Part shown: positions 21,495-31,556 of the stretch, piece after piece
Layout: each line of letters begins with the position of its first letter
Position numbering within the stretch: the stretch's first letter is position 1
Assembly (NCBI GenBank): GCA_001603455.1
Contig: LUZA01000029.1
Coordinates: 16,179 to 80,178 of the forward strand
Direction of reading: 5' to 3'
Source: Bacteroidales bacterium Bact_09
GTDB taxonomy: Bacteria > Bacteroidota > Bacteroidia > Bacteroidales > UBA932
Length of the DNA stretch: 64,000 bases
Notes under the pieces: generated by a model
What the model saw: only the letters and a program-made list of their open reading frames with translations
Told to the model about the DNA's origin: nothing
The model's database searches: none
Program-made: the position numbers and the translations under genes

Positions 21495-21675
21495 ATGCTA
21501 TCAACTCTGCATATCTCCTTTTACACCTCCTTCCTGCCGCTTCACACCAACCTGTTCCCGGTATGCCATCGAGGCTCTGCGCAGGTATGGACCGTTCAAA
21601 GGCCTGTACCTGGCCATATGGCGATTTCTCCGTTGTAATCCCTGGGGAAGCAGCGGTTATGATCCGGTACCCTGA
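21454..21675 (+). CDS. yidD: Membrane protein insertion efficiency factor YidD
   Basis: Core motif [19 protein letters not shown] followed by [31 protein letters not shown] leaves no doubt about the family. YidD is a small amphipathic peripheral inner-membrane protein that supports YidC. Two starts are possible: TTG at 21454 gives 73 residues, the usual family size, with a 41-base overlap with rnpA; ATG at 21385 gives 96 residues with a 110-base overlap. I prefer TTG on length and on the N-terminus [17 protein letters not shown]. The stop lies 19 bases inside the convergent uvrC. Confidence 0.88.
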
Positions 21676-23480
21676 TTTACTGTAAATTCTTTGATCTTCA
21701 CAGCAAGTTTTGCCGGAACGATCCGGGCAAGCTCTTCTTCCGTCGCCAGGGCTATCTGTTTGAGGCTTCCAAAATGACCAAGCAGTTTTTCCATTGTCCG
21801 GGGACCGATACCCGGTATATCCAGTAAAGCAGACCGGGTAAAACCGGCACTGCGTTTTTTTCTGTGAAAAGTGATTCCAAAACGGTGTGCCTCGTTGCGT
21901 AACTGCATCAGCAACCTTAACGAAGAGGAATTCTTATCCAGGAACAAAGGGGTTCTGTCAGTTGCAAGATAGATCTCCTCCAGCCTTTTGGCCAGACCGA
22001 CCACAGTAATTCTTTCCGCAAGTCCCAGTCCGTCCAGTACATTGAAAGCGGCTGACAGCTGGCCTTTTCCCCCGTCTATAACAACCAGCTGGGGCAGCGG
22101 GCTGCCTTCGCTCTGAAGACGGCTGTAACGGCGTGTAACGACTTCTGTCATAGATGCAAAATCATCGGGTCCTTCAACACTTTTTATGGCAAAATGACGG
22201 TAATCCTTTTTGCTCGGAATCCCGTTCCTGAATACGACACAAGCCGCTACCGGATGGCTCCCCTGCAGGTTAGAATTGTCAAAACATTCAATGTGTAAGG
22301 GCAATACATTCATGCGTAGGTCCTCTTTCAGCCGGGTAAGCATTTTCTGTGTCTTTTGCTCCCGTACGGTTCTCTTGTCCCGGGATTCCATCAGATGTAA
22401 TTGTTCCGTCCTGTAATTGCCTGCATTGCGCATACTTAGCGATACAAGTGTTTGTTTATCTCCTTTTTTGGGAACATGTACCTTGTTGTTCCCCGGAATA
22501 GCTTCGGGGAGGAACGGGACAATAATCTCCCTGGACAACCCCCCCTGTTGTTCTTTCATTCCGGCCATAAACAGGCTCAGTACCGCAGCGGGATCTTCCT
22601 CTATCTGTAATTTGTATTTCACATTCAGGGACTGTATGACGGCACCGCCGGAAACACGCAGAAAATTTCCAAAAGCCATGGATGAAGGGGTGTCAACTAC
22701 CAGGCTGAATACATCCACATCGGATATGCGGGGACTTACGATCACCGACCTGGCCTGATACCGTGTCAATGCTTCCCACTGTTCCTTGAATTTTTGAGCC
22801 TGTTCAAAATTGAGCGTCCGGACAGCCGTTTGCATCTGTTCTTCCAATATTTTACGCACCGAGGCCACGTCTCCCTTGAGGATACTGACTACTGACCGTA
22901 TATAGCCATCATAATCCTGGGCCGATTCTTCCCCTGTACAGGGTGCCTTACAACGGCCGATATGTGCCTGCAGGCATTTTTTGTATTTACCCGCAGCTAT
23001 CGCCTGTGGCACCAAGTGTAGTGAACAGGTACGCAGCGGGTACAGGGTATGCAGCAGTTGCAGCAGCTGTTTGCAATAATAAACGCTTGTATAGGGTCCG
23101 AAATACAGAGAACCGTCCCTGATCATCCTTCTTGTCTGCATAACGCGGGGAAAGGACTCGTCTTTTACGCATATCCAGGGAAATGTTTTGTCATCCTTGA
23201 GCAAAATATTATACCTGGGCTGTATGGTCTTGATCAGGTTGTTCTCCAGCAGCAGGGCATCGCTTTCAGTTTCCACCACTGTGTATTCGAGCGATTGGAC
23301 CTGGCTGACCATTCGCCGTGTTTTTACCGATAAGTTCCTGCCTGCCGTAAAATACTGTAATACGCGCTTTTTCAGGTCTTTTGCCTTTCCCACATAGATC
23401 ACATTACCGTCCTTGTTCAAGAACCTGTACACTCCGCACTGATGGGGTAAAAGAGCTAATTGGTCAGCCATGTTAATCAT
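21657..23480 (-). CDS. uvrC: Excinuclease ABC subunit C
   Basis: A 607-residue nucleotide excision repair nuclease that cuts on both sides of a lesion with UvrB. Domains in order: GIY-YIG nuclease ([20 protein letters not shown], residues 10-95), Cys-rich segment, UvrB-binding UVR motif near residue 205 ([18 protein letters not shown]), RNase H-like endonuclease ([21 protein letters not shown]), and C-terminal helix-hairpin-helix ([19 protein letters not shown]). Start is 23480 (MINMADQ) or 23471 (MADQ). A weak -7 match (TAATTTTA, 23495-23488) precedes 23480 by 7 bases. Confidence 0.95.
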
Positions 23481-23497
23481 TACGTTGTAAAATTACA

Positions 23498-23505
23498 TAT
23501 ATTTG
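23498..23505 (+). promoter_or_regulatory. -7 box for the OlsF-like gene
   Basis: TATATTTG, a perfect match to TAnnTTTG, lies 11 bases before ATG 23517. It fixes the start downstream of an in-frame upstream extension reaching back into the uvrC region. Confidence 0.65.
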
Positions 23506-23516
23506 CCAAACCATTT

Positions 23517-25301
23517 ATGAAAAAACTGATAGAAACAAAAGATCTGCGACAGGTCTTCGGAGAAAAATCGGTTGTGGGTTTTTTTCTGGCACCGGCCCTG
23601 ATGAAACTGATGAAGCTTGACAAGATCAACAAGCTTTATAACAAGGTAGCAGACTTTCAGGGCCGTGATTGTCTCGAGGCTTTTCTGGCCGAGATGCGCA
23701 TTACTTACGAAATACCTTCCACAGATCTGGCCAACCTTCCCAAGGAGGGGCCTTTCATAACCGTATCGAATCACGCTTACGGCGGCCTGGACGGAATCAT
23801 CCTGATGCATCTTGTATCAGAGGAAAGGCCTGATTTAAAGGTTATCGTTAATTTTTTGTTGTCGCGTATTAAACCGTTGCAGAATTTCTTCTTACCTGTC
23901 AATGCTTTTGATAAAAACGTATCTTCCCGTTCCAGCATCAAAGGGATCCGCCTTGCCAAAGAATGCCTGCAAAAAGGCAAACCCTTGGGTCTTTTCCCTG
24001 CCGGAGAAGTATCTCACATAGGACCTTCAGGACAGGTGGAAGACCTTCCCTGGCATACCCCGATAGTCAAATTTATTCTGAATGCCAGTGTTCCTGTGGT
24101 CCCTATTTATTTTGAAGGACATAATTCGGCCCGTTTCATGCGCAGGGCAAAGATCCATCCCCTGTTGCAGACAGCCAGTCTTCCGGCGGAAGTCTTGAAC
24201 AAAAAAGGACAGCGGATTTCTATCCGGATCGGGGCGCCCGTGAGCGTAGCAGAACAACAACGCTATACAGACTATAAAGAGCTGGGGAATTACCTACGTG
24301 CACGGACCTATGCGCTGGCTGCCAATATAGAAAAGGATGACAAATACAAAGGTCTGGAAAATGCTTCGCCCATAGCACCGGCCAAGCAACACGAACTTGC
24401 TGCCAGAGAGATAGAACAATTGCCTTCCCGAAGCTGTCTTTTCAGAATCAATAATTTTGCCGCTTATTTTGCTCCTTATTCCTTTATCCCCAATATCATG
24501 TACGAGATCGGACGCAAAAGGGAGGAGGCTTTCCGTACCGTGGGAGAAGGGACTTACCAGCCACTGGACCTGGATACCTTCGACAGGAATTACCACCACC
24601 TGATCCTGTGGGATACAGACAAAAAAGCCATCGTGGGGGCATACCGCATAGGCATGGGCGCCAACTTGATGAAACGTTTTGGGGTAATGGGATTCTACAA
24701 TAGCACGCTTTTTAAGTTTGATCAAAAATTTGAACCGGTTCTGAATCAAAGCATGGAACTGGGAAGGGCTTTCATCAGCCACGAATACCGTTACGAGGCC
24801 ATACCCATGATGCTTCTTTTCAAGGGTTTGTTCCACATCATGCTCCGCAACGAAGAGTACCGCTATTTCATAGGACCGGTAAGCATTTCGTCCTGGTATC
24901 CCAAATTGTATCAATCCCTGATACATAAATACATCATGGAACACCATAGCATCATGGATTATCACGATTGTGTCCATCCCAGAATACCATTCAACCCTGA
25001 TTTTGGACTGGTAGATCCCAGCGTGTTGTTGCGCGATGTTCAGACACCCGAACAGCTTGACCGGCTGCTGATGCGCATGAGCAACAGGCAATACCGTCTT
25101 CCTTCACTGGTCAAGCGGTATCTGAAACTGAACGCAAAAGTGGTTGTGTTCAATATAGACAGGGAATTTAACGATTCCCTTGACGGATTCATCGTATGTG
25201 ACGTTTTCGATGTCTCTAAAGAAGAGCTAATTATGGTAACCAAGGATATTTCCGATCCTTCCATAATCGAAAAGCGATTTGGAAAACACCTCACAAGATA
25301 A
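23517..25301 (+). CDS. Bifunctional amino-acid-lipid acyltransferase (OlsF-like)
   Basis: A 594-residue fusion. The N-terminal half is a PlsC-type O-acyltransferase: VSNHAYGGLDG (variant of the catalytic HX4D motif, here His followed by Asp), then FPAGEVSH and PVVPIYFEGHNS. The C-terminal half is a GNAT-type N-acyltransferase (NYHHLILWDTDKKAIVGAYRIGMG, FKFDQKFEPVLNQSMELGRAFI), like OlsB. This order matches OlsF proteins, which make ornithine or glycine lipids from acyl-ACP. In Bacteroides the same two steps are done by separate GlsB and GlsA proteins. The 3' end overlaps tadA by 23 bases. Confidence 0.8.
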   Translation: MKKLIETKDLRQVFGEKSVVGFFLAPALMKLMKLDKINKLYNKVADFQGRDCLEAFLAEMRITYEIPSTDLANLPKEGPFITVSNHAYGGLDGIILMHLVSEERPDLKVIVNFLLSRIKPLQNFFLPVNAFDKNVSSRSSIKGIRLAKECLQKGKPLGLFPAGEVSHIGPSGQVEDLPWHTPIVKFILNASVPVVPIYFEGHNSARFMRRAKIHPLLQTASLPAEVLNKKGQRISIRIGAPVSVAEQQRYTDYKELGNYLRARTYALAANIEKDDKYKGLENASPIAPAKQHELAAREIEQLPSRSCLFRINNFAAYFAPYSFIPNIMYEIGRKREEAFRTVGEGTYQPLDLDTFDRNYHHLILWDTDKKAIVGAYRIGMGANLMKRFGVMGFYNSTLFKFDQKFEPVLNQSMELGRAFISHEYRYEAIPMMLLFKGLFHIMLRNEEYRYFIGPVSISSWYPKLYQSLIHKYIMEHHSIMDYHDCVHPRIPFNPDFGLVDPSVLLRDVQTPEQLDRLLMRMSNRQYRLPSLVKRYLKLNAKVVVFNIDREFNDSLDGFIVCDVFDVSKEELIMVTKDISDPSIIEKRFGKHLTR

Positions 25302-25722
25302 GTATTATATGCAAAAAGCCCTGGAAGAGGCGTATGCAGCCCGCGGAAAAGACGAGATTCCCGTGGGAGCGGTTATCGTGTGCCGTGGAAAGATCATCGC
25401 CAGGACACACAATCTTACTGAAACCCTGAACGATCCCACTGCCCATGCCGAAATGCAGGCCATTACGGCTGCATGTAATGCACTGGGAGGAAAATGCCTT
25501 GACCAATGCACCATGTACGTAACATTAGAACCCTGTGTGATGTGCGCCGGAGCCAGCTCCTGGGCCCAATTGGGTCGCCTGGTGTATGCAGCATCTGACC
25601 CCAAAAAGGGTTTTTCCCTCTATTCTGACAAGATACTCCACCCAAAAACAGAAGTATCAGCCGGTTTAATGGCTGACCTGGCAAAAAAGTTGTTGAAAGA
25701 TTTTTTTGCTGGGAAACGCTAA
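25279..25722 (+). CDS. tadA: tRNA-specific adenosine deaminase
   Basis: A 147-residue zinc deaminase. DPTAHAEMQAI carries the zinc His and catalytic Glu; EPCVMCAGA carries the two zinc Cys. TadA converts A34 to inosine in tRNA-Arg(ACG). ARGKDEIPVGAVIV is typical of the family's N-terminus. A C-terminal KKLLKDFFAGKR tail may touch RNA. The start overlaps the acyltransferase by 23 bases. Two tRNA genes follow directly downstream, but from their own promoter. Confidence 0.92.
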   Translation: MENTSQDKYYMQKALEEAYAARGKDEIPVGAVIVCRGKIIARTHNLTETLNDPTAHAEMQAITAACNALGGKCLDQCTMYVTLEPCVMCAGASSWAQLGRLVYAASDPKKGFSLYSDKILHPKTEVSAGLMADLAKKLLKDFFAGKR

Positions 25723-25735
25723 TGTTATATCTTTG
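25705..25735 (+). promoter_or_regulatory. Promoter of the tRNA-Gln pair
   Basis: TTTG (25705-25708), a 19-base spacer, and TATCTTTG (25728-25735) match the full Bacteroidota promoter. The first tRNA starts 11 bases later. The upstream element lies inside the end of tadA. Confidence 0.75.
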
Positions 25736-25746
25736 CACCCTCCGAT

Positions 25747-25817
25747 TGAGCTATGGTGTAATGGTAGCACTACAGATTTTGGTTCTGTCTGTCTAGGTTC
25801 GAATCCTGGTAGCTCAA
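25747..25817 (+). tRNA. tRNA-Gln (anticodon UUG)
   Basis: A 71-base cloverleaf: acceptor arm TGAGCTA pairs with TAGCTCA, discriminator A. The anticodon stem ACAGA/TCTGT encloses the loop TTTTGGT with anticodon TTG. The T-loop is GGTTCGAATCC. U1-A72, the weak first pair favoured by GlnRS, is present. CCA is not encoded and must be added after transcription. Confidence 0.96.
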
Positions 25818-25824
25818 CAAACAC

Positions 25825-25895
25825 TGAGCTATGGTGTAATGGTAGCACTACAGATTCTGGCTCTGTCGGTCCGGGTTCGAGTCCTGGTAGCTCAA
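25825..25895 (+). tRNA. tRNA-Gln (anticodon CUG)
   Basis: A second 71-base cloverleaf starting 7 bases after the first, with identical acceptor, D arm and anticodon stem. The loop TTCTGGC gives anticodon CTG. It differs from its neighbour at six positions only, so it arose by tandem duplication and changed its wobble base. CCA is not encoded. Confidence 0.96.
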
Positions 25896-25910
25896 CTCCA
25901 GACAATCAGT

Positions 25911-25918
25911 TAACTTTA
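25911..25918 (+). promoter_or_regulatory. -7 box for the exported metallopeptidase gene
   Basis: TAACTTTA, one mismatch from TAnnTTTG, ends four bases before ATG 25923. A leaderless transcript is predicted. The site lies 16 bases after the second tRNA. Confidence 0.5.
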
Positions 25919-25922
25919 CAAA

Positions 25923-28832
25923 ATGAACAGACTGGTTGTATTTTTTTCCCTTACCTGTTGCCTGGCTGGGTCGTCCATAACGGCAAGCGGCCAGTATTAC
26001 AGAACGGGTGAGGATCCTGCCCGCCTGAAATGGAACAGCATACAGACAGCCCGTTTTCAGATCATTTATCCCCGGGGCATCGATTCACTGGCATTCCGTT
26101 ATGCCTGGTTGCTGGAACAGACAGTACAGCCAGTCATGTCTTCGCTCCGTGCAAAAAGTCCCTCCATCCCTGTTCTGATAAAGCCTTACGACATTAATAG
26201 CAATGGAATGGTGGTCTGGGCACCCAAAAGAATAGAGCTGAAAACAACACCTCCCCCGGAAGGCACACTTCACAATTGGGAAAAGCAGCTTGTGCTCCAC
26301 GAAACAAGACATGTGGCACAAATGCAACGCGCCGGGGAGCGATTTTTCCGGATTTTGGGATGGTTTCTGGGACAACAGTCAGAAGGGATAGCGGTGGGAC
26401 TTTATTTCCCAAGATGGCTACTGGAGGGAGATGCTGTCATTACAGAAACACTATTATCAAGAGCGGGAAGGGGCCGGGAGGCTTCTTTTCTGATGCCTTA
26501 CAAAGCCTATTTCGCGCAAGATAAATCTTTTTCATACGATAAATGGCGTTACGGTTCATTCCGGCATTATGTACCGAATCACTATGCGCTGGGTTACATG
26601 AAACTCTCCGTTGCACAATACTATTCAGGAGAAGAAGCACTGGACCGCATATTCACCGATATCACCAAATATTCTTTCTGGCCTTTTGTTTATAGTAATA
26701 CCTTCCGGAGAAATTATGGACATTATGCAGTAAAACTGTGGGAACCGGCCATTGAATTCTACAAAGGTGTCTGGAAAGAACAAGATGCCCGGAAGGCCCC
26801 TTTTTATGAAGGCCTTCAGATAAACAGGCCTGTTAAAGATTTTGTACACTACAGTTCTCCTACCCTTGCACTGCACAAAGACGGCAGCCATGTTCTGTAT
26901 GCCGTGAAATCTTCCCTTTCACAAACAAAAAGGCTGGTTCGTTTCCCGCAGGAAGCCGGAACCAAGGAACAACCAGTCTGCCTGCTGGGACAGATCAATT
27001 CGGCCTTGAGAACGGCCGGCCCTTATCTCTACTGGAGCGAGACGGTAAGCGGGCACCGCTGGGCTCATGAGAACTTTTCTGTGATCATGAGCTATAACAC
27101 CGTAACGGGAAAAAAGAACATGCTTCTGCCCCGAACCCGTTATTTTAATCCCACACCATGTCACGACGGTCTTTTTCTTGCTGTTGTGCATTACCCGCCG
27201 CAGGGAGGGTCGGAGCTTCACCTGCTGGATCCCCAGACAGGCCAAATCCTGGAAAAACACATCGCCCCCGGGGGAGAACAAATGGCCGATATCGCCTGGA
27301 CTGACAACAACACCTTGTTCCTGCTGATGATCGGTGAAAAAGGCACCGGGATCTACCGCCTGGACAGAAGATCCGGGAGCTGGAAAACCGTTCTTCCCCC
27401 GACTTTCCATTCTCTTACAGGACTACAGGAAGCCGATGGTCTACTGTATTTTAAAAGTGACAGGCTCCGGAATACGGACAATATCTACAGCCTGGATCCG
27501 GAAAACGGGCAGGTCCTGCAACTGACAAACGTTCGTTTCGGGGCTTTTGACCCATTTCCCTCAGGCAGGGATTGTGGCCGTTTCTTGTATTATGTCAATT
27601 ATACAGCACAGGGTTACCAGCTTACCCGGTTGCATCCGGACAGTCTGCTGAACAGGCCTGCAGACTTGCCGGCACATCAGCAAGATCCTTTTATCCTGGC
27701 TTCCCGGTCGGATTTCAACATCGACACCCTGTGCGTACCGGAGGAATTGTCCTATCCGGTAACAAAATATAGTAAATTCCTCAACATGTTCCGGATCCAT
27801 TCCTGGATGCCGTTCTACTTTAATTACAACGACATCGCAAATTTCACCTTTCAACATTATTATCAGACCATAGCCCCCGGAGTAACGATCATGTCCCAAA
27901 ATACACTGGGGACATTGACTTCGACCCTGGGGTATTCCTACCACAAGGGATTCCACGCCGGCCATCTGAAGATGAACTTTTCCGGATGGCTGCCAGTTTT
28001 TTCCCTGCGACTGGATGTGAATGACAGATTCAAAACAAACACCTTTATAAGTCCGGACAACGACAATGGAGGATACAAATGGGTTTCCGACACCCTGGCT
28101 TTACCACACCTGGAGGCATCCCTGCAGGCATACATCCCCTTTACATTTCATCGCCACGGATGGCAGCGCGGGTTTGTGCCTTCTGTCAGATACTGGTTTT
28201 CGAACGACACTTACCGGCTTCCCTGCGGGAAGGGGGATATCCCAAATCAGATATTCCAGGCTGGCATCCAGTATTATCAAATGGTAAACCGTTCTGTACG
28301 GGATATATTTCCCCGCCTGGGTTTCGGGCTGAATGTCCAAACTTCTTTTTCTCCCGGGTCCGTAACATTTTTCACGAATATTCTGTATTTACAAGCTTAC
28401 GGATACCTGCCCGGAGTCCTCTGCAACCAAGCCTTTAAATGGAATGTGGGGTGGCAAAGACAGGAAATGAAAGACCGTTATTTTTACCTGGGGACGTTTA
28501 TCCGGCCTCCGCGCGGCATGGCAGATAAGGTCCTTGCCCCGGAAACTTTTACGGCTTCTTTAGATTATGCCATTCCGGTCTGGGTCGGTGATCCGTCAAT
28601 CCCGGACATTATATATATCAAACGCCTACAACTGATTCCGTTTGCCGACTACTTGCAGACCCTGCAGCAGGATGGAACAAAAAACAGGTACTGGTCTGCC
28701 GGGACAGACTTGCTAATGGATTTCCATCTTTTCCGGATCGGTGTCATGCTCACAGCCGGCGTACGTTACGCATATACCTGTGATAAGAAGCACCATTTTG
28801 AATTTTTATTTTCATTTCCAGCTTTTAATTGA
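25923..28832 (+). CDS. Exported zinc-peptidase/propeller/outer-membrane barrel protein
   Basis: A 969-residue protein with a signal peptide (about 1-23). Residues 40-280 look like a gluzincin-type peptidase: HETRH at 126-130 fits HExxH, and the third ligand would be Glu168 in WLLEGDA, 42 residues on. Residues 310-630 carry repeated DGSHVLYAV, ADGLLYFKSDR, CGRFLYYVNY strands typical of TolB-like propeller repeats. From about 680 alternating polar/hydrophobic strands run to a terminal Phe-x-Phe pattern ending in FNstop, as in outer-membrane barrels. Function unknown; a surface protease anchored in the outer membrane is the simplest reading. Confidence 0.72.
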   Translation: MNRLVVFFSLTCCLAGSSITASGQYYRTGEDPARLKWNSIQTARFQIIYPRGIDSLAFRYAWLLEQTVQPVMSSLRAKSPSIPVLIKPYDINSNGMVVWAPKRIELKTTPPPEGTLHNWEKQLVLHETRHVAQMQRAGERFFRILGWFLGQQSEGIAVGLYFPRWLLEGDAVITETLLSRAGRGREASFLMPYKAYFAQDKSFSYDKWRYGSFRHYVPNHYALGYMKLSVAQYYSGEEALDRIFTDITKYSFWPFVYSNTFRRNYGHYAVKLWEPAIEFYKGVWKEQDARKAPFYEGLQINRPVKDFVHYSSPTLALHKDGSHVLYAVKSSLSQTKRLVRFPQEAGTKEQPVCLLGQINSALRTAGPYLYWSETVSGHRWAHENFSVIMSYNTVTGKKNMLLPRTRYFNPTPCHDGLFLAVVHYPPQGGSELHLLDPQTGQILEKHIAPGGEQMADIAWTDNNTLFLLMIGEKGTGIYRLDRRSGSWKTVLPPTFHSLTGLQEADGLLYFKSDRLRNTDNIYSLDPENGQVLQLTNVRFGAFDPFPSGRDCGRFLYYVNYTAQGYQLTRLHPDSLLNRPADLPAHQQDPFILASRSDFNIDTLCVPEELSYPVTKYSKFLNMFRIHSWMPFYFNYNDIANFTFQHYYQTIAPGVTIMSQNTLGTLTSTLGYSYHKGFHAGHLKMNFSGWLPVFSLRLDVNDRFKTNTFISPDNDNGGYKWVSDTLALPHLEASLQAYIPFTFHRHGWQRGFVPSVRYWFSNDTYRLPCGKGDIPNQIFQAGIQYYQMVNRSVRDIFPRLGFGLNVQTSFSPGSVTFFTNILYLQAYGYLPGVLCNQAFKWNVGWQRQEMKDRYFYLGTFIRPPRGMADKVLAPETFTASLDYAIPVWVGDPSIPDIIYIKRLQLIPFADYLQTLQQDGTKNRYWSAGTDLLMDFHLFRIGVMLTAGVRYAYTCDKKHHFEFLFSFPAFN

Positions 28833-28838
28833 TCTTTC

Positions 28839-29531
28839 ATGAAATTTCTCCGTTTTTTCTCCCCTTACGAATGGTTCCTGCTAATAGCCATCGTTACCCT
28901 GAATTTTGTCGTGTTTTTTATTACGGGAGAATGGGACATGTTATCGACTGTTGCTACTGTTTCGGGTGTTCTGTGTGTAGTATTGGTTGCAAAGGGACAT
29001 ATATCTAATTACCTCTTCGGACTGATTCAGGTTAGCCTTTATACCTACCTTTCTTGGGGCGTGGGCTATTGGGGGGAAGTGGTACTTAACGGACTGTATT
29101 ATGTTCCCATGCAGTTCATCGGTTTTTTCATGTGGCGAAAACGAACCCGAGAAGGAAGCCGGACGTGCGTCAGGGCAAAAAACCTGACAGAAAGGCAAAG
29201 GCTTGTATTGTTTATCGTATGTGCGGCATTGATAGCCTTAGGCGGATTTGTTCTTAAGTATTACGGAGATCCCGCCCCTTTCCTTGATTCCACCACAACT
29301 TTCCTTTCCATTGTCGCCATGTTCCTCATGGTTAAAACATATTCCGAACAATGGTATTTGTGGATCACCGTCAATGTGGCGACCATCATTATGTGGGGCA
29401 TGGCCTATTTCCGGGAGGGACAGGCCAGTCATCTGATCATTGCTTCTATGTGGTGTGTTTACCTGCTCAATTCCGTTCACGGTCTGTTCGTGTGGAAAAA
29501 GGCTGCCAAAACGACTTCGCTGACAAATTGA
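28839..29531 (+). CDS. pnuC: PnuC-type nicotinamide riboside/vitamin transporter
   Basis: A 230-residue membrane protein with seven hydrophobic helices. Family features: NYLFGLIQVSLYTYLSWGVGYWGEVVLNGLYYVPMQ-type helices with the tail FIGFFMWRK, and the later W-x-W-x-x-x-N pattern in WYLWITVNVATIIMWG. PnuC proteins let nicotinamide riboside diffuse in before phosphorylation; related PnuT and PnuX carry thiamine or riboflavin. It starts six bases after the exported peptidase gene. A second paralogue lies at 47484-48149. Confidence 0.82.
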   Translation: MKFLRFFSPYEWFLLIAIVTLNFVVFFITGEWDMLSTVATVSGVLCVVLVAKGHISNYLFGLIQVSLYTYLSWGVGYWGEVVLNGLYYVPMQFIGFFMWRKRTREGSRTCVRAKNLTERQRLVLFIVCAALIALGGFVLKYYGDPAPFLDSTTTFLSIVAMFLMVKTYSEQWYLWITVNVATIIMWGMAYFREGQASHLIIASMWCVYLLNSVHGLFVWKKAAKTTSLTN

Positions 29532-29555
29532 CAGATTTCCTGCCGTGGCATTGAT

Positions 29556-29585
29556 TTTGCGTTAACACGATTCGTTAACAGCAAA
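29556..29585. promoter_or_regulatory. Palindrome upstream of groES, candidate operator
   Basis: TTTGC-GTTAAC (29556-29566) and GTTAAC-A-GCAAA (29574-29585) form an inverted repeat with a 7-base centre; GTTAAC is itself self-complementary and so also reads as a direct repeat. It lies 44-73 bases before the groES start. It does not resemble the CIRCE element (TTAGCACTC-N9-GAGTGCTAA). No clear -7 box follows. Confidence 0.5.
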
Positions 29586-29628
29586 CGCTTTAATTAAACA
29601 ACAATAAACATTTTAAACTTTATCAGAG

Positions 29629-29898
29629 ATGAAAATCAAACCTTTAGCAGATCGAGTAGTCGTTCAGCCGCAGGAAGCAGAGACCAAGACAGCTTCGGGT
29701 CTTTACATTCCCGACACCGCAAAAGAAAAACCCCAGCGCGGAAAAATCGTGGCAGTAGGAAGTGGAAAAAAAGATGAGCCTATGGAATTGAAAGAAGGTG
29801 ACATGGTTCTGTACGGTAAGTACGCTGGAACTGAGATCAACTTTGACGGAGAAGAGTATCTTATTATGCGTCAATCTGATGTGTTAGCCATTATCTGA
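29629..29898 (+). CDS. groES: Co-chaperonin GroES
   Basis: An 89-residue GroES, short as in other Bacteroidota. [36 protein letters not shown] shows the mobile loop (TASGLYIP) that docks on GroEL, and [19 protein letters not shown] the conserved core. Seven copies cap the GroEL ring. It is 29 bases ahead of groEL, in one operon, with a palindromic candidate operator upstream. Confidence 0.97.
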
Positions 29899-29912
29899 AA
29901 TTAACCAAATAA

Positions 29913-31556
<1,644 letters not shown>

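Follow-up and report, generated by a model that had tools for sequence, protein, structure and literature searches.

The 969-codon gene analysed here, from a Bacteroidales bacterium, encodes a single polypeptide that joins a predicted zinc-protease domain to a TolB-like propeller and, at the C-terminus, to a barrel of the Omp85 type. The gene lies in a window of 64,000 nucleotides (the whole stretch of DNA that was analysed) and is present in a single copy in the host genome. The three-part combination is well supported: in the distant relative L079, one and the same protein exceeds the Pfam cut-offs for Peptidase_MA_2 (33.2 versus 32.4 bits), PD40 (70.6 versus 20.9 bits) and Omp85 (33.7 versus 24 bits). 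A first-pass annotation, made from the DNA sequence, had suggested these three parts and had named beforehand two outcomes that would count against it, the lack of a barrel and unconserved His/Glu residues. Neither occurred, as a barrel was predicted and the His/Glu residues were found to be conserved. The features of the gene are collected in Table 1.

Table 1. Features of the 969-aa gene and of its downstream neighbour (positions refer to the window; residues to the encoded protein)
Feature	Residues	Position	Strand	Basis or remark
Whole gene		25923..28832	+	Uninterrupted ORF; 969 aa: signal peptide, HExxH peptidase domain, TolB-like propeller, Omp85-like barrel
Predicted signal peptide	1-23	25923..25991	+	By inspection
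Predicted gluzincin-type peptidase domain	about 24-300	25992..26822	+	PF13485 in distant relatives; collagenase G profile match
HETRH, predicted zinc-binding/catalytic motif	126-130	26298..26312	+	116/117 relatives
WLLEGDAV, with Glu168 as predicted third zinc ligand	165-172	26415..26438	+	Glu168 in 117/117 relatives
TolB-like beta-propeller	about 292-580	26796..27662	+	Sequence profile and fold
Probable Omp85-like outer-membrane barrel	about 600-969	27720..28829	+	Foldseek and profile chain
PPRGM, candidate counterpart of the Omp85 loop-6 VRGF/Y motif	862-866	28506..28520	+	Weak direct profile alignment
Downstream pnuC-like gene		28839..29531	+	Start codon 6 nt past the stop codon of the 969-aa gene

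The HETRH sequence and a downstream glutamate had been taken as a complete gluzincin site, and the comparison with relatives upheld this assignment. The number of HExxH motifs expected by chance in a protein of such composition is about 0.03. Alignment of 41 family members showed that His126, Glu127, Arg129, His130, Gln133, the stretch Glu168-Gly-Asp-Ala171 and Glu175 are invariant. When 117 relatives were aligned, with identity down to about 20%, His126, Glu127, His130 and Glu168 were all retained in 116 of them, the sole exception being L210, a degenerate copy from a tandem pair, in which N, M and R stand in place of His126, Glu127 and His130. Together with the near invariance of Asn94, Arg183 and Tyr221 in the relatives, this conservation of the predicted active site argues for a working enzyme. 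The Pfam family Peptidase_MA_2 (PF13485) was detected above cut-off in the distant relatives L073, L077 and L079, and the window protein itself gave no Pfam match to it. For a profile of the N-terminal domain, the only match of solved structure was the peptidase domain of clostridial collagenase G (E 5.5e-4); in this alignment the HExxH and WF.EG[DT]A motifs coincide, and WLLEGDAV is placed opposite WFDEGTAEF of collagenase G. When the structure of the whole protein was predicted with the aid of 12 close homologues, the peptidase domain was modelled with low confidence (pLDDT about 30). Motif and remote homology strongly indicate that the N-terminal domain is a gluzincin (Peptidase MA clan).

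The propeller-like repeats noticed earlier were confirmed as a TolB-like propeller by both the sequence profile and the modelled fold. The profile matched TolB with an E-value of 1.7e-19, and the model, which was of good confidence, could be superimposed on the TolB structure with a Z score of 22 (237 aligned residues, rmsd 2.9).

For the C-terminal part, a barrel-only model of the 380 residues 590-969 was obtained with moderate confidence (pLDDT 58, pTM 0.54). The model contains 13 strands and leaves some 100 residues at its N-terminal end unresolved; reading of the sequence suggested about 16 strands. A Foldseek search with this model returned 17 matches under 1e-3, all of them TamA or BAM-complex chains; the best was TamA (E 2.6e-5), and TM-scores to Omp85 structures were about 0.35-0.4. 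In VIA-align, BamA (Z 15.3) and FhaC (Z 15.1) ranked highest, with CymA (Z 14.3) and other barrels close behind. The barrel-like C-terminus proposed in the first-pass annotation is thereby borne out by a model whose best solved matches are TamA and BamA. Profile comparisons linked the family barrel to the barrel of a distant group (E 8e-8) and the latter to Omp85 (E 2.5e-12). The direct comparison of the family barrel with Omp85 was weak (E 0.021, probability 2%) but collinear; hhalign works near its limit on such barrels, as the E-value of 0.04 between the profiles of two distant barrel groups reminds us. In this weak direct alignment, the RG of PPRGM falls on the RG motif of BamA, and Gly865 is nearly invariant, although the full VRGF/Y motif is not kept. 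The window protein has no Pfam Omp85 match; among the distant relatives, L079 scored above the cut-off and a second protein below it. No POTRA domain was present among the best 25 Pfam families for the 41 members, and the N-terminal region is already taken up by the other assigned parts. Membership in the FadL or PorP barrel families was considered and rejected, as neither gave a profile match to the family barrel. Taken together, the models and profiles indicate that the C-terminal barrel is quite probably Omp85-like.

Used as a single query, the protein had no match in Pfam or NCBIfam and nothing meaningful in the PDB. Sequence comparison nevertheless identifies it as a member of a large, widespread and uncharacterised Bacteroidota family. 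Close homologues were found in 11 Bacteroidales MAGs (56-77% identity; 10 full-length, and one, L011, truncated near a contig end), and 29 diverse full-length homologues share 21-25% identity. The single-sequence search gave matches in 118 of 296 sampled Bacteroidota genomes. With a profile of the 41 members, 177 of 247 Bacteroidota genomes were matched at E 1e-10, a count that takes in propeller-only matches and distant relatives of 950-1150 aa. At the level of the order, the profile matched 116 of 198 sampled genomes at E 1e-30, with most matches spanning the full length; about 40% of these genomes gave no match at this threshold. The profile of the window family aligned with a profile of 21 distant relatives over 893 columns (hhalign E 4.6e-91), and therefore the three-part design is common to both. 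A search with L079 yielded mostly propeller-only matches and one partial match in Salinibacter, annotated as 'basic secretory protein-like protein'. No relatives were found in a scan of viral contigs or among the plasmids searched with the window protein.

A tandem pair of family genes was observed at locus L210 (G303:C2:125000-132000); the genome belongs to the same taxonomic family. HExxH has been lost from the 1004-aa copy, whose catalytic positions hold N, M and R, and is retained in the adjoining copy; judged by these residues, the two could possibly form an enzyme/pseudoenzyme pair.

By inspection, the protein begins with a predicted Sec signal peptide that lacks a lipobox Cys and would be cleaved before Gln24, a residue invariant across the 12 closest members. 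Such a site is of the Bacteroidota Q-rule type, a rule for signal peptide cleavage (PMC10653852). The gene had been described as sitting alone between tRNAs and pnuC. The flanks agree with this description: genes for tRNA-Gln(TTG) and tRNA-Gln(CTG) lie upstream (25747-25896), and a pnuC-like ORF lies downstream, followed by groES and groEL. The isolation does not quite hold, as co-transcription of the 969-aa gene with the pnuC-like gene is likely: only 6 nt separate them, and 10 of 11 close relatives have the two genes side by side, the 11th locus ending at a contig end. This applies to the close clade only and does not imply a functional link. In close Bacteroidales MAGs a longer gene order is also conserved (21657-31556 in the window: uvrC, acyltransferase-like, deaminase-like, the 969-aa gene, pnuC-like, groEL). 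Across 16 distant loci, we found neither this uvrC-to-groEL order, nor a pnuC gene beside the family gene, nor any conserved operon partner.

By its architecture, with the propeller directly N-terminal to the barrel, the family is in, or beside, the WD40-Omp85 subfamily. This subfamily was named in 2014 by Heinz and Lithgow as having a TolB-like propeller and no known function (PMC4104836), and it was still listed as not well characterised in the 2024 paper on PlpD (PMC11116518). Like the 969-aa protein, WD40-Omp85 proteins have a TolB-like propeller N-terminal to an Omp85 barrel, with no POTRA domain named, and the WD40, 'Metallo' and 'noNterm' subfamilies are all described as non-POTRA architectures (PMC4104836). 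However, the main text on WD40-Omp85 covers only the WD40 part, without an HExxH domain such as that of the 969-aa protein (PMC4104836). The earlier claim of a new arrangement thus has to be narrowed: the propeller-Omp85 fusion was already named, and L079 carries all three Pfam domains, whereas the strictly conserved peptidase site in a WD40-Omp85-type protein appears to be new, no report of an HExxH site in such a protein having been found in the open-access literature searched.

Other known proteins share single features with the 969-aa protein. The relation to collagenase G (M9) is limited to the peptidase core, in which HExxH and the downstream WFxEG[DT]A region align; collagenase G is a secreted collagenase without propeller or barrel. 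TolB has the same propeller by fold and sequence but is a soluble Tol-Pal component that contains neither peptidase nor barrel. Accessory subunits of the Bacteroidota BAM complex (BamG-K, BamM, BamP), which include a FadL-like barrel, a PPI protein and a propeller lipoprotein, are set apart by their published descriptions. Identity with BamM, whose name hinted at a metal protein, was dropped, as BamM is a PPI-fold calcium-binding surface lipoprotein. In the 1.93-Mb host genome we observed one Omp85 (PF01103) match and no FadL/Toluene_X or PorP/SprF match at E 1e-6, though BamG, which is of the FadL type, is described as universal in Bacteroidota. Another family to be compared is PF00149, which we take to be the calcineurin-like metallophosphoesterase family. 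It is on the basis of PF00149 that the 'Metallo' Omp85 subfamily was termed metalloprotease (PMC4104836); these proteins resemble the 969-aa protein in joining a metal-dependent N-terminal enzyme domain to an Omp85 barrel (PMC4104836), but their PF00149 domain is unlike its HExxH peptidase. PlpD (patatin-Omp85) likewise combines an enzyme domain at the N-terminus with an Omp85 barrel, having a patatin lipase and one POTRA domain in place of the zinc peptidase and propeller (PMC11116518). BepA of E. coli (M48) is analogous in role only: it is a zinc metallopeptidase that acts at the outer membrane in protein assembly, but it is periplasmic, has a TPR domain, contains no propeller or barrel (PMC8423444) and is unrelated to the 969-aa protein.

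The peptidase and propeller most likely face the periplasm and not the cell surface, because domains N-terminal to Omp85 barrels are periplasmic, with PlpD as the precedent. The first-pass annotation had called the protein a surface protease; on such a reading, the peptidase and propeller would have passed through or around the barrel to act outside the cell. Many surface proteins are exported by Bacteroidota, and type Vd secretion, the model first put forward for PlpD, was of the same kind (PMC11116518). PlpD, an enzyme-Omp85 fusion once thought to deliver its enzyme to the surface, was then put to the test by experiment, and its enzyme domain proved to be entirely periplasmic (PMC11116518). 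The known relatives of the Omp85-like barrel carry periplasmic N-terminal domains as well, and by inspection the protein shows neither a surface-lipoprotein signal nor an obvious type IX sorting domain and ends in a barrel strand. We therefore consider the surface location quite unlikely. We tentatively favour, as the reading of the whole, an outer-membrane-anchored, periplasm-facing zinc peptidase in OMP quality control or maturation. After Sec export and removal of the signal peptide before Gln24, the Omp85-like barrel would be inserted into the outer membrane, and the propeller and N-terminal peptidase would hang on the periplasmic side, where BamA has its POTRA domains. Zn2+ would be held by His126, His130 and Glu168, with Glu127 as the general base, and the propeller could serve as a platform that binds a substrate or partner. 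The presumed position of a zinc peptidase beside an Omp85 barrel, on the inner face of the outer membrane, suggests OMP quality control or maturation, as for BepA, a periplasmic zinc peptidase with this function in E. coli (PMC8423444). The protein may thus carry out proteolytic quality control or maturation of proteins that enter or cross the outer membrane, in a BepA-like manner but anchored by its own barrel. Both catalysis and the class of substrate are what we infer here; neither a substrate or partner nor, across the 16 distant loci, a conserved gene neighbour pointing to OMP quality control was found. Since some 40% of the genomes sampled in the order gave no match at E 1e-30, the job would be dispensable or shared with other proteins.

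Two other roles were weighed against quality control by a periplasm-facing peptidase. The protein could be an assembly or translocation factor, in which a propeller is fused to a BamA/TamA-like barrel and the peptidase fold serves chiefly to bind metal or substrate. Heinz and Lithgow described the propeller-barrel fusion as reminiscent of BamA and BamB (PMC4104836), most Omp85 barrels that have been studied function in protein assembly or translocation (PMC4104836, PMC11116518), and the TolB-like propeller resembles a docking platform. A pure scaffold, however, would not need its catalytic Glu and every zinc ligand to be conserved almost without exception, and no POTRA domain is seen, which in BamA, FhaC and TamA handles the substrate; we regard this role as somewhat unlikely. 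The remaining proposal, a role in the processing of secreted peptides or nutrients by a periplasmic peptidase that is tied to a pore and clips incoming oligopeptides, draws on the M9 collagenase-like peptidase signature and on the pnuC-like gene, with which the 969-aa gene is probably co-transcribed in the close clade. The link to pnuC is positional only and is absent from all 16 distant loci, and no Omp85 barrel is known to act as a nutrient pore, which makes this proposal very unlikely. Returning to the periplasm-facing peptidase, a more far-reaching version, which we put forward as unlikely but conceivable, is an assembly-or-destroy station not described so far, in which an Omp85 barrel with its own zinc peptidase and propeller would receive and cut outer-membrane or surface-bound clients in many Bacteroidota.

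The outer-membrane proteins and surface lipoproteins that Bacteroidota have to assemble are unusually numerous and diverse, and it was not until 2025 that structures of their BAM complexes were solved. Within the open-access literature searched, the protein described here would be the first member of the Omp85 superfamily in which an HExxH peptidase has been recognised. A single point mutation of Glu127 suffices to probe its function. Wide occurrence and a strictly conserved peptidase site would make such an Omp85-like protein a natural candidate for a quality-control role in the assembly of the Bacteroidota outer membrane.
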